64,000 nt of DNA, taken from Candidatus Pyrohabitans jungbluthii (GTDB lineage Archaea; Hydrothermarchaeota; Hydrothermarchaeia; Hydrothermarchaeales; BMS3B). Below the pieces are notes generated by a model. That model did no database searches. It saw nothing but the letters and a program-made list of their open reading frames with translations, and was not told the DNA's origin. Positions within the stretch are counted from its first letter, which is position 1, and each line of letters starts with the position of its first letter. The stretch is taken from the NCBI GenBank assembly GCA_002010065.2, contig MTMD02000008.1, positions 124,001 through 188,000 on the forward strand, in the 5' to 3' direction. The translations under genes were made by a program, and so were the position numbers. Shown piece by piece: positions 8,031 to 57,956 of the stretch.

Positions 8031-8382
8031 GTTCATGAACGCACAGTACACCTGTGACCTTTCCTCCCTTGCCCCATACAAGCAGGTGTCGCACGCCACT
8101 TATCGCCATGACCTTCATCGCATTTTCCAGTTCGTCGTCTTCATTAATCTGCAGACAGGGGTTTCTTCCCATTACTTCGCAAGGAGTCATCATCTGGTAC
8201 GCTTTTACTTTTGATGTGTCGTTGCCGGAGGCGCGCCATGCGATAATGTCGCTGTCGGTAATTAAGCCAACTATCTCCCCCTTTTCCTTTATAACAACTA
8301 TATCCGAGCGGTTCTTTTTCATTGTCTCAACAACTTCCTCAAAACTCGCTTCGGGGCTCACCTCTGGCAAATCTGTGCGCAT
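8023..8382 (-). CDS. CBS-domain-pair protein
   Basis: DIVVIKEKGEIVGLITDSDII...GVRHLLVWGKGGKVTGVLCVHELI. Confidence 0.85.
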   Translation of the reverse strand: MRTDLPEVSPEASFEEVVETMKKNRSDIVVIKEKGEIVGLITDSDIIAWRASGNDTSKVKAYQMMTPCEVMGRNPCLQINEDDELENAMKVMAISGVRHLLVWGKGGKVTGVLCVHELI

Positions 8383-38718: not shown

Positions 38719-38972
38719 ATTCTTACAATTGCGGCGGAGTTAAAAAAGGTTGTTGCGGAGGTGGGTTTGGTTAAGTGATAACTAGGGGTTTATATTAAGA
38801 AACAAAGATATCCACTATTGTTTGCTCCTCATGAAAAGAAGATTGACTATGTAATTATTCTTTCTCATCAATTTTTGTTATGTCTCTATCCGATAATAAA
38901 CTACAATAAATAGAAATTATGAAAAAATCAATAGATATTAAATTAAATTTTTAGATAATGTCTTTGTTTGAT

Positions 38973-39025
38973 TGAGATTAATCATGATTGGAAAAATTTT
39001 TTATATGGCACACTATTAATCTCAA
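38973..39025. promoter_or_regulatory. Promoter of the HNH gene bracketed by 11-bp perfect inverted repeat TTGAGATTAAT (38973-38983)/ATTAATCTCAA (39015-39025)
   Basis: TTTTTTATATGG TATA-like element lies between the arms; ATG at 39029. Confidence 0.65.
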
Positions 39026-39028
39026 ATA

Positions 39029-40612
39029 ATGGGCAGAAAGACCATACCAAAAGAATTACGTAGAAGACTGCTCGTCTATTGCGGTCATGAATGTTGTGTT
39101 TGCAATACGAGGATTGGCAGGAATCATATTCATCATATCAACGGCGATCCAAATGACAACAGGGAAGAGAATCTTATACCTCTATGTCCAAACTGTCATG
39201 CTCAAGCCCATAATGGAGTATTTGAAGAAAAAGAGCTTTTGATGTATAAAGAAGCTAAGATTAAAAAAGTCGGAATAAAAGAATTATTAGAAAAGAAGGA
39301 AATTCCTTCCAAAAAATTCGATGATATTTTCTCGATTAAGTTAGACGAAATAGTTAAATCTCTTGAAAAAGGTAATTATGATCCAGAATTAAATGATAAG
39401 ATCGACGAAGTAATAATGCTGTTAAAGGAACGTATAGAAAAGTGGGATGTTCCTTCAGTGAGATTTGGGACTAAAGAACTTTTCTTAAAGTTATACAAAT
39501 ATAGTGGAGATGGAAAAAGACTTACGAACCTTTATAATATTTATGAAGACTTATTCAGATTTGCGTATTTGCAAAGAAAGCATATATTAGGTAATATGAT
39601 CAACGTTTTTTATTCTATCTGGCTTGAAGCATGGCTTTTCGGATATGATGTAGAGAAAGCAGAAAAATGTTGCGATATCTTACTTAGATTAGGATTAGAT
39701 TTTATAGATAATGATTTATCAGTGGCAGAAGATTGCTTGAATATGATTGACAATGCAGCAGGGGATATGTTCGAACCAGAGATTTTAAGCAGAGAAATTT
39801 TATTTGCTGCAGCTGTTGGCGAAAGGAAAGACGAAAGTGAGGAAATGAAAAAATTCTTCGAAACTATTATCGATTATATTAAATGGAATGATGAATATGC
39901 ATGGGATGATGAGAACTACAGTTATTTGATAGATAGTCTAAGTTATGCGGAATCTATTCAAGACGAATATAATATCAATATTGAGAATATAAAAACAAAT
40001 TATCTGATGACTATAGCTAAGAATAACATGAATAAACGAATAGATGAGTATTTGGAATATCTTGTAAGTGGAGAATATGAAGACGAATTCCGAGAGTTTG
40101 AGGCAGAGTATCTGAGTAAACTCTTATTGGCGTACGAAAAAATTGATCCAAATATAGTAGATCATATAAATTCCAAAATTGAAAAGATCGGAGATCAGAA
40201 ATTAAAAAAGGAAATTGATATGATCATTGATCAACATAATCTTCTAAAGAAGTTTTTTAGAGGGTCTGAAATGATTGCTTCATTGAAGGAACTTATTAGA
40301 TTTTTGGAAAATACTTCAGACATTGATAATCTAGGAGTTGGTATAACTACTTATGGCCCTTCTTGGATAGTTTTCCATCAAAAACTTAATAAAAAAGACA
40401 AAGAGGAACTAAGAAAATTGGCAATAAAGTATGACATATACAACTCTGAATTTGAAATATCAGATAATGAAATTATGTTCGAGATGGACTTTCTTGTTTA
40501 TTTAGGAAATAATAAACATGATATGAGACGACTGATTCAATTTCTTAAAGATATTGATAAAAAATTTAAAGTTAAGAGTTTAGTTACGGGCATCGAATTT
40601 AGGTTCAAATAA
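39029..40612 (+). CDS. HNH endonuclease fused to a ~440-aa uncharacterised alpha-helical region
   Basis: CGHECCVCNTRIGRNHIHHINGDPNDNREENLIPLCPNCHAQAH; visibly AT-rich relative to flanks. Confidence 0.88.
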   Translation: MGRKTIPKELRRRLLVYCGHECCVCNTRIGRNHIHHINGDPNDNREENLIPLCPNCHAQAHNGVFEEKELLMYKEAKIKKVGIKELLEKKEIPSKKFDDIFSIKLDEIVKSLEKGNYDPELNDKIDEVIMLLKERIEKWDVPSVRFGTKELFLKLYKYSGDGKRLTNLYNIYEDLFRFAYLQRKHILGNMINVFYSIWLEAWLFGYDVEKAEKCCDILLRLGLDFIDNDLSVAEDCLNMIDNAAGDMFEPEILSREILFAAAVGERKDESEEMKKFFETIIDYIKWNDEYAWDDENYSYLIDSLSYAESIQDEYNINIENIKTNYLMTIAKNNMNKRIDEYLEYLVSGEYEDEFREFEAEYLSKLLLAYEKIDPNIVDHINSKIEKIGDQKLKKEIDMIIDQHNLLKKFFRGSEMIASLKELIRFLENTSDIDNLGVGITTYGPSWIVFHQKLNKKDKEELRKLAIKYDIYNSEFEISDNEIMFEMDFLVYLGNNKHDMRRLIQFLKDIDKKFKVKSLVTGIEFRFK

Positions 40613-40686
40613 CAAACCAAGATAGAAACTTTTTATGAGCTTTGTTAACTTGTATAATCAAACTTCACCACCAATAATCTCCACCC

Positions 40687-41088
40687 ATGTTAAAGCTCCT
40701 GCTCAGGGGCATGTACTATGTGGGCAAGAGTGCTGTGCTGGGAAGCTTTGAGAAGCTGGAGAACTACGAAAAACACCTTCTGGAGGAGGCTTTCAAGCGG
40801 GCGGAGTTCGTCTTCGTTGGCATTGTGGCAGACGATGAGGACAAGCGCCTGAAGGCAAAGATAAGGAAGCTTTCGAAACTTTTGGCAGCGCGCTACCCCG
40901 GGCGCTACGAGGTGGTGGAGGTTCGAGGAGAGTTCGCACCAGCGGTGGAGGATGAAGAGGTCCACACCCTGGTTGTGCCATCGCAGGAGCTTGCTCGAAG
41001 CATCAATGAGGCGAGGGAGAAACGCGGACTAAAGCGCCTTATGGTGGTGGAGGTGCCGCCGCCGGAGGTAGGGGAAACGGGAAATTAA
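40687..41088 (+). CDS. Pantetheine-phosphate adenylyltransferase/cytidylyltransferase-like protein lacking the HxGH motif
   Basis: LLEEAFKRAEFVFVGIVADDED...EEVHTLVVPSQELARSINEAREKRGLKRLMVVEV resembles archaeal CoaD; no GxFDxxHxGH. Confidence 0.45.
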   Translation: MLKLLLRGMYYVGKSAVLGSFEKLENYEKHLLEEAFKRAEFVFVGIVADDEDKRLKAKIRKLSKLLAARYPGRYEVVEVRGEFAPAVEDEEVHTLVVPSQELARSINEAREKRGLKRLMVVEVPPPEVGETGN

Positions 41089-54354: not shown

Positions 54355-55607
54355 AGCTCAAGCTCCTTAAGTTCGCGATCGCTCGCATTTTTGCTGAGAG
54401 TATAGTCTTCCTTTAATCTGTGAAGCTTTTTATCCTTTCGCAGCCTTGCGCTTCCGCCGCCGGTAATGTTGAGTAGCACCCTCTCGTGCCTACGAATGCT
54501 TCCATTTTCAACTGCCTGCAAAAGTGCTGCCACTGCCACGCTGGCAGCAGGGAGAATATCTATCCCCTCCAGCCTTGCAAAAAGTGCCTTGGCGCGCTTT
54601 GCCTCGCTGTTCTTAACCCCGTACATCTCTCCCCGCGTGGCCACAAGCGCGTCGTAAACCCCACCTGCTATGCCATAGGGAGGGTAGCGGTTTGAGAGCA
54701 CCCGCGCGTAGATCAGGTCGAGCACATTCTCAGCCTGCGGAATGTCCTCCTCAGGCACAATCTCCCGCCTGCCGGCACGCCATGCGCTGTACATAGGTGC
54801 AACAGGGAGATTCTGGGCCAGGTGAAGCCTGGGCAAAGCTTTACCAAAGCGGCCATCCTCGCGAAGGCGGAGCGCCGCCTCGTAAGTTGCTATCGCACCC
54901 GTACCGCTTCCCACCGCTTGGAAGTAGTGCTGTGGCATGCACCCCATTTCAAACACTGCATCGAGCAGAACTGTAGCCAAGCCATCTCTGCGAGCTATAT
55001 TCCTAGCACCACCCTCATAGGTAAAGCCCTTTATTCTGGAAAGTCGCTGGGCTATTGCGATGCTGTCCGAGTAGTCGCCGTCGGTAATCATGACCGTCTT
55101 CACATACCTCCTGTCATAGCGTGGAAGAAAAACTCCGCACAGGCATTTCCTAGGCACGAGGAGTACCACCGGGAAGCGCTCCTGCGAGGCTGCAGCTGCG
55201 AAGGCTTTTGCGGTATTGCCTGCAGAGGCTACGACCAGCTTGGTGACACCGTTCTCCTGTGCATAGCGTATAGTTACCGCAGCTTCAAGCTCCTTGAATG
55301 TGCAGGTCTCCATGCTTACCCCTCGCTCTGGCCAGTAGCCGTTGAAGGTGATGTAGAGGTTTTTAAGCCCAAGTTCTTCCGCTAGACCCTCGCTTTTATA
55401 GGTTACCGGTTTCTCGCTGTAGCTTGAAGGCTCGTTTACAGGCAGCCAGTCGATGAAGCGCCATATCCCGGGGAGGTCCCTGAGAGTCAACTTTTTCTCT
55501 GGATAGATGCTTCTTGTTAATCCTTTGTGGTTAGGGCAGACGAAATTAAATGAAACATTCTTCCTAACCTCTCCCCCTTCGAGGCAAAGCAGATGAAACT
55601 TCTCCAT
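54351..55607 (-). CDS. Cysteate synthase (threonine-synthase-like PLP enzyme)
   Basis: FTFKELEAAVTIRYAQENGVTKLVVASAGNTAKAFAAAASQ; TLRDLPGIWRFIDWLPV; 4-nt overlap with comDE. Confidence 0.87.
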   Translation of the reverse strand: MEKFHLLCLEGGEVRKNVSFNFVCPNHKGLTRSIYPEKKLTLRDLPGIWRFIDWLPVNEPSSYSEKPVTYKSEGLAEELGLKNLYITFNGYWPERGVSMETCTFKELEAAVTIRYAQENGVTKLVVASAGNTAKAFAAAASQERFPVVLLVPRKCLCGVFLPRYDRRYVKTVMITDGDYSDSIAIAQRLSRIKGFTYEGGARNIARRDGLATVLLDAVFEMGCMPQHYFQAVGSGTGAIATYEAALRLREDGRFGKALPRLHLAQNLPVAPMYSAWRAGRREIVPEEDIPQAENVLDLIYARVLSNRYPPYGIAGGVYDALVATRGEMYGVKNSEAKRAKALFARLEGIDILPAASVAVAALLQAVENGSIRRHERVLLNITGGGSARLRKDKKLHRLKEDYTLSKNASDRELKELEL

Positions 55608-55656
55608 GAAGATACCTCAGGGGTTAGGAAAAAATCCTACCATGGATAGTATAATT

Positions 55657-55701
55657 TGAAAATCATCCAAAAAATTATAGCACTTTAAAAGATGATTTTC
55701 A
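55657..55701. repeat. 11-bp perfect inverted repeat TGAAAATCATC-N23-GATGATTTTCA
   Basis: Read directly, between cysteate synthase and heme-sensor kinase. Confidence 0.75.
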
Positions 55702-55820
55702 CCTGTCAACTTCATGGAGATGGTGGGGAAGAAGAGACGGGACTATAAGGGTAATGCCAGAGAAATTTGAGGCATATATTTAAATAGAACAAAGAGATAC
55801 TATTATATAGGAACGCTTTC

Positions 55821-57956
55821 TTGGATGTGGTGGGGATTAATGTCCTTGGAAAATTAAAACTTGGAACTAAGTTCCTTCTTGTTGTCGGAACTGTTGTAGC
55901 TGTGGTTATCTCATCTTTTTTTGTCTGGGAATACAAAGAACTGGAAAAACACATAATAAGTGGGGTAGAGAAGCAGGCTGAGATAGCCTTCGAGCAGATC
56001 GTTATAACCCGCCAGTGGAGTGCAGATTACGGAGGGGTATACGTTGAGAAAAGGGCAGGTGTGGAGTCCAACCCCTACCTCCGTGAAATCGGGATTAACC
56101 CAGATATAATTGATATTGAAGGAAAAAAATACACCTTAAAGAATCCTGCCCTCATGACAAGGGAAATCTCAAGTTATGCTGAGGCAAAGGGAATTCATCA
56201 ATTCCATATCACCAGCCTCAAGCTTATCAATCCCAACAATGCCCCGGATGAGTTTGAAAGGCAGGCGCTTGAAAAATTTGAAAATGGAATAAAAAGCGTT
56301 TCTCAGATAACAATTAAAAAAGGCACTCCAGTCTTCCAGTACATGGCACCTATTTATGTAGAGGAGGCGTGCCTGAAATGCCACGGGCATCTGGGGTATA
56401 ACGTGGGGGACATTGCAGGGGGCATAAGCGTCTTTGTGCCCATGCAGGAGGCGTATCTGGCTATTCAAAATACAAAAAGAAATCTCTTCTTTCTTGCAGC
56501 AGCAATAATACTCGTTTTAGAAGCAAGCCTCTATTTGTCAATAAAAAAGATGGTAACGAAGCCCTTAGAAAAACTTACCAGAGGTGCTGAAGAAATTGGA
56601 AAAAGCAATCTGGACTACAGGCTTGAGATAGAGAGCAGCGACGAAATAGGCAGACTTGCTGGAGCTTTTAACGATATGAGTTCAAAATTGAAGAAGTCCC
56701 ATGAGGATATAAAGCATAAAGCCGAGCAAATTGCTCTGATGCGGGACATCGACAAAGCTATACTCTCCACAATGCGCATAGATAAGATGGTCCCTGCGAT
56801 TCTCGGGAAAATAAACAGTGTAATATCCTGCGACTATGCTCATGTAGCCATTCTTGATGAAAAAAATAGAGACTTCTATGTTATTGGCTCTTCTGCGGAA
56901 AATAAGGCCTCTATTAGTTGCTTCAAGATACCATTTGAGCAGGCTTCTCAGTGTCCTGTTTTGAGAGATAAAAAACCCATGATTTGCGGGGATATAACCC
57001 AAGAAAACCCCTGCAGCGCATGCATCTTCAATTTGAAAATTGTGGAGGAAGGGGCTCGTTCTACATTAATTGTACCACTTCTCGCAGGGGAGCGGGTATT
57101 AGGTCTCCTTCATCTTGGAAGCCTCACCAACGACGCATTCAATGAGGAGCACATGGCAATAGCGCAGGAACTCGCAAACCAGCTTGCAGTCGCTCTTGAG
57201 AATGCAAGACTGATAGAAGAACTTAACAATGCTTATAAGAAGCTTGAAGAAAACTATCTCGATTTAAAAGAGATAGACAGGGTAAAAAACGACATCATCG
57301 CAAACGTTTCTCACGAGCTTAGAACGCCATTAACCATTGTGAAGGGTTTTATTGAAATTGCGATGGAAGAAGAGGATAAAGAGGAGAGAAATGAACTCCT
57401 TTCAATGTGCAGGAAGGCACTATTCAAGCAAAATAGAATTATAGACGACCTGATAAATGTATCGGAGTTCGAGAAAAAGGAATACAAAATAAAATTCGAA
57501 AATGTTGATTTAGAGCATGTTATCCACATTGCCAAAGAAGAGATTAAATCTTACGCACTTGAAAAGGATATTACCATAAAAACGTCTGTAGAAGAGAGCC
57601 TGCCTGATATAAAGGCAGATTTCGAGGCCTTGAAGCATGCAATTACTAATTTACTTGACAACGCAATAAAATTCAACAGGAAGGGCGGAGAGGTTGTCAT
57701 AGAAGCACGGCGAAAAGACAATGCGATTGAAGTATGCATTGCAGATACAGGTATTGGTATTCCCAAAGACAAAATACCTAAGCTGTTCACACCTCTATAC
57801 CAGATCAATGCCACCACTACTCGAAAATTCGGCGGCACTGGCATGGGCCTGGCGGTTGTCAAGAGAATTATTGAAGCCCACGGTGGAAAAGTATGGGTGG
57901 AAAGTGAGGAAGGTAAAGGAAGCAGATTTTGTTTTACCCTACCTATTCAAAGATAA
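55821..57956 (+). CDS. Sensor histidine kinase: CxxCH (DUF3365-like) sensor, HAMP, GAF, HisKA, HATPase
   Basis: [64 protein letters not shown]. Confidence 0.92.

Follow-up and report, generated by a model that had tools for sequence, protein, structure and literature searches.

The window that we analysed, a 64-kb stretch of a 394,757-base contig from an archaeal genome of 1.99 Mb, contains an insert of 1,915 bp with a GC content of 30.2% (38758-40672), which lies between a mevalonate kinase gene (- strand) on its left and a gene that begins at 40687 (+ strand) on its right. Because the congeners show the site empty, the ends of the insert could be located with nearly single-base precision by a blastn comparison with the empty region of four of them, and the resulting limits are close to the 38760-40686 of the original prediction. 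In the alignment to the congeners, the insert stands in place of AT in the ancestral GTTGTTGCG[AT]AATAATCTCC, and the empty-site sequence that was defined from the four genomes is GTTGTTGCGATAATAATCTCC. Each of the four other genomes of the genus has the site empty, with the same flanking genes about 58 bp apart and the gene absent from between them; the site is occupied in one genome out of five. Neither terminal inverted repeats nor a target-site duplication were found at the insert ends, and the longer inverted repeats were dismissed as ordinary AT-rich matches. With an empty site in all four congeners and such precise ends, the insertion is best explained as a recent event that added precisely this one gene in the window species, repeated loss in its relatives being less likely. 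The horizontal acquisition that had been proposed for this gene is thus strongly supported by the four empty sites, the composition of the insert and its patchy distribution.

The abrupt shift to AT-rich sequence with a single 527-aa ORF, as described in the original prediction, was confirmed both by the ORF listing, in which the frame spans 39029-40612 (+) with the stop codon included, and by the GC minimum. The suggested sliding-window analysis showed that the insert is the lowest-GC stretch of the window (0.302 against a 64-kb mean of 0.509, sd 0.043, in 1,915-bp windows), and the codon-position composition was low as well, with a GC3 of 0.28 in the HNH-fusion gene, whereas its two neighbours have values of 0.60 and 0.69. 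A chance ORF was ruled out, since shuffling the insert 2,000 times gave no open run longer than 117 codons, against the 530 that were observed. A TATA-like box, TTTATATGG (39000-39008, +), can be read 22-29 bases ahead of the ATG, which suggests that the insert may bring its own archaeal promoter with a leaderless transcript and that the islet may be an autonomous expression unit. No structured RNA in the insert was matched in Rfam. Through the insertion, the gene on the right has also lost contact with its original upstream sequence, and a T-rich, TATA-like stretch at the insert end (40620-40686) may now serve that gene. Elsewhere in the window, the GC content drops to about 40% in another stretch (55401-57801), with a 711-aa sensor histidine-kinase-like ORF at 55821-57956 (+).

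The first 80 residues of the protein (39029-39268, +) form an HNH domain, which was delimited by the PADLOC and PHROG profiles and by the ligand positions. All of the ligands of the complete HNH motif and CxxC/CxxC zinc site that had been claimed are present, namely C22, C25, C53 and C56 for zinc and H35-H36, N48 and H57/H61 for the core, and this His-Asn-His core with zinc Cys pairs places the domain in the HNH endonuclease superfamily. Profile matches were essentially restricted to this part (PADLOC ZorE-type HNH, E 8.9e-8; PHROG HNH, 3.2e-10), and the Pfam HNH models matched below their cut-offs. On its own, the HNH part says little, because 23 of 394 archaeal genomes contain related domains, which occur in many kinds of ORF and in unrelated contexts. 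An archaeal 383-aa open frame (L055), which has an N-terminal HNH and, behind it, regions that read like those of restriction endonucleases, is another candidate for an HNH-fused nuclease. Homing endonucleases commonly carry HNH domains too, and a free-standing, selfish enzyme of the homing type would cut the empty site, have the insert copied in by repair and read the site with its C-terminus. A lone HNH gene in a precise insert between genes that are adjacent in all of the congeners fits this explanation, as do the weak matches of the HNH region to phage and homing HNH families (PADLOC, PHROGs); the occupation of a single genome out of five in the genus does not. HNH cores are also typical of McrA-type enzymes, and the HNH part weakly matches a 5-methylcytosine-specific enzyme in the PDB (E 0.32), which would be in line with a restriction-type nuclease, either modification-dependent (type IV-like) or nicking, whose C-terminus reads modified invader DNA, but no known modified-base reader was found using Pfam.

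Behind the HNH domain, residues 95-410 (39311-40258, +) were modelled as an acidic alpha-solenoid, which is conserved with the relatives L004 and L005 described below, and residues 411-527 (40259-40609, +) as an alpha/beta module, which was delimited by a profile match and alignment and for which the model confidence was low. The AlphaFold2 models, which rest on a four-sequence alignment, gave a long alpha-solenoid with block pLDDT values mostly between 70 and 95 for residues 95-410 and a poorly resolved alpha/beta module at about 419-513. The solenoid is a putative sensor or oligomerisation domain. For residues 95-527, no family match was obtained in Pfam, NCBIfam, PADLOC, PHROGs or the PDB sequences; DUF1955, Zw10_N and Maelstrom gave weak matches to the C-terminus that were below the cut-off. 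The Foldseek matches listed were all helical-repeat proteins of generic types (designed repeats, importins, armadillo and HEAT; best E 3.9e-3), and a comparison with viral proteins gave nothing beyond fragments of HNH domains and generic repeats. The earlier view that this region belongs to no recognised family therefore stands, with no sequence family matched and, by fold, generic solenoids only. The description of the ~440 residues as acidic and helical holds for residues 95-410 (pI 4.56) but not for the last ~117, which have a pI of 8.1 and an alpha/beta fold. Because the solenoid is strongly acidic, it appears to be unsuited to DNA recognition; this large domain is unlike a DNA-binding domain, which counts against a homing enzyme as well as against a restriction-type nuclease. 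No copy of the C-terminal domain was found in the phage, plasmid or viral collections, which also argues against homing.

Relatives were sought by a protein search of 61 genomes and then in the genome_contigs collection (84,980 species genomes) using two short peptide patterns. What is new here, judging from the sequence comparison, is that the C-terminal ~410 residues recur in two archaea in which DUF4062 replaces the HNH domain. These two, the only other archaea in which this region was found, are a genome of the same class as that of the window (L002/L005) and an Archaeoglobales MAG (L004). The window protein shares ~38% (38-39%) identity with both over ~410 residues, from about residue 105 to the C-terminus. 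In both relatives DUF4062 is well above the Pfam cut-off (E 7e-21 in L004 and 6e-22 in L002/L005) and an HNH domain is absent, while DUF4062 had no Pfam match in the window protein or elsewhere in its genome. The same ~410-residue domain is thus joined to HNH in the window and to DUF4062 in L004 and L005. Profile searches of ~1,200 archaeal genome slots, with some genomes counted twice, yielded no further full-length member. The exchange of the effector counts effectively as one event, because there are only three full or near-full members, of which two are close relatives (79% identical) and one, that of L005, is truncated at the end of its contig.

The 79% identity of L004 and L005, although the records place their genomes in different archaeal groups, suggests transfer. 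Between them dN/dS was 0.15, and the gene has therefore been kept under purifying selection in the DUF4062 relatives. Their DNA identity is lower in the DUF4062 part (73%) than in the C-terminal part (86%), and this uneven divergence could mean either that the effector part evolved faster or that it was exchanged separately. The Glu of a THIEY motif is kept in both, which makes it a candidate catalytic residue of DUF4062. The L004 gene forms an islet with a GC content of 32.6% against 43-47% in its neighbours; on one side there is what we take to be a myo-inositol-phosphate-synthase-like protein, and on the other an ORF that reads as an 8-oxoguanine glycosylase. Just upstream of the DUF4062 gene in L005 lies an ORF (L005:8768-9181) without a Pfam match, presumably transposase-like. 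Four weak genome matches were rejected after reading the ORFs, as they proved to be an acyl-CoA dehydrogenase (L008), the antisense of EF-2 (L011), a DNA ligase (L012) and a PhoU-like protein (L069).

The DUF4062-bearing copies bear directly on both nuclease-based explanations. DUF4062 was reported to be a TIR-like NADase in a preprint from May 2026 (PMC13174449). Because these copies also occupy unrelated sites, the spread appears to be independent of the HNH domain: with a non-nuclease domain, the C-terminal part spreads equally well into unrelated sites. The presence of these relatives at other sites and the acidic character of the solenoid make a homing endonuclease less likely, and we consider it an unlikely explanation for the insert. 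A restriction-type nuclease seems improbable, as elsewhere the C-terminus is joined to a domain of the NADase type, which does not require DNA as its target.

The terminal module also occurs apart from the solenoid. In another archaeal genome, two copies of it (~115 residues) lie in tandem in a separate protein of 250 aa (L044 5289-6041), which the module profile matched with E values of 8.9e-14 and 6.4e-10. This protein opens a tight gene run, the last gene of which encodes a PD-(D/E)XK-like protein (below the Pfam cut-off, E 7e-4). The run (L044:4763-8203) is AT-rich, consists of multiple genes and abuts a tRNA-Asn gene (8218-8292), and tRNA genes are usual integration sites; the adjoining ORF is presumably an IS200/IS605 TnpA-like gene. 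The L044 run may be another uncharacterised defence-type cassette, and it is a lead rather than proof.

A location of the homologues in defence islands is not supported, as the loci that were seen sit among housekeeping genes, with the exception of this tRNA-adjoining cassette. In the ORF lists, no defence genes were recognised beside L004 or L005 or beside the window gene, whose neighbours are mevalonate-pathway and other housekeeping ORFs. A solitary and patchy gene with no recognised defence neighbours could also be a toxin or regulator unrelated to viruses, for example one that triggers cell death under stress, or a decaying cargo gene without a present function. This explanation is doubtful, since the ORF and its active site are intact, the DUF4062 relatives have been under purifying selection (dN/dS as above) and the effector classes match those of antiviral systems.

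Considering all of these observations, the window protein is probably a one-protein immune effector that was gained by horizontal transfer. Its best reading, by analogy with reported systems, would be a defence or abortive-infection effector that consists of one protein and spreads horizontally, in which the solenoid acts as the sensor and DNA cutting by HNH is the output. The original prediction of a defence or selfish nuclease with a sensor region is supported indirectly and is shifted toward defence by the fusion of the C-terminal domain to DUF4062 elsewhere. An earlier survey described counter-invader proteins in which HNH, REase and TIR domains replace one another N-terminally while the rest stays constant (PMC8195603), and the reading as immunity follows from this analogy, because here too a constant C-terminus is combined with a changing effector. 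In the mechanism that we propose, the acidic solenoid and the terminal alpha/beta module would recognise a sign of infection, such as a protein of the virus or the state of a nucleic acid, and would keep the N-terminal effector inactive until then. Binding of the trigger would bring the HNH domains together or free them, and the activated domains could then cut either the invader's DNA or the cell's own, the latter as abortive infection. In L004 and L005, the same sensor would instead activate a TIR-like NADase. If this is true, one sensor domain would have two alternative outputs, and therefore a single trigger could be sought either by the loss of NAD or by DNA cleavage. The empty site would, in turn, show cleanly how an immune cassette of one gene moved alone, outside any defence island.

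Little has been described of the immune systems of uncultured archaea. In our analysis, the two-part protein is real, horizontally gained and undescribed, and it is most likely a single-gene immune effector. We regard it as an even chance that the protein represents a so far undescribed family of archaeal immune sensors consisting of one protein each, in which a new alpha-solenoid and alpha/beta module are combined with an HNH or a TIR-like NADase output and of which the terminal module is also present in other nuclease-bearing cassettes.

Outside its HNH part, the window protein matched none of the described defence families. ZorE of type II Zorya gave the best PADLOC profile match to the HNH region, but this match (E 8.9e-8) spans only ~55 residues and the C-terminus of the window protein differs; NCBIfam NF041791 scored 21.6 bits against a cut-off of 600, and no ZorA/ZorB-like ORFs were recognised among the window neighbours listed. 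The HNH core is likewise shared with IscB and free-standing homing HNH enzymes (NCBIfam IscB, E 2.4e-5; engineered IscB chain in the PDB, E 0.043), although the NCBIfam score of 23.6 is well short of the cut-off of 175 and covers the HNH part only, and no guide-RNA family was found at the insert in Rfam. A closer parallel in organisation is offered by the counter-invader proteins (TRADD-N, EAD/bDLD, STAND; PMC8195603), in which HNH, TIR and REase effectors are exchanged on a constant partner. They differ in that STAND NTPase, Death-like and TRADD-N domains were undetected in the window protein, and the surroundings of defence genes that characterise them were not seen in the ORF lists at the window, L004 or L005. 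The bacterial DUF4062 proteins named Swarozyc were reported to act in abortive antiphage defence by killing phage-infected cells, for which they need both the Glu of the active site and an auxiliary domain at the C-terminus through which the phage portal is sensed (PMC13174449). The proteins described here resemble them in being single, horizontally spread proteins with an N-terminal effector and a C-terminal auxiliary, putatively sensory, domain, and L004 and L005 share the N-terminal DUF4062 effector itself, whereas the window protein is archaeal and carries HNH in its place. The auxiliary domain of the Klebsiella pneumoniae Swarozyc was reported to be a winged helix-turn-helix, whereas an alpha-solenoid and alpha/beta module were modelled here; no winged-helix proteins were among the Foldseek matches listed. 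If our reading is true, the reported idea of DUF4062 and Swarozyc would be extended to archaea, with a different sensor.
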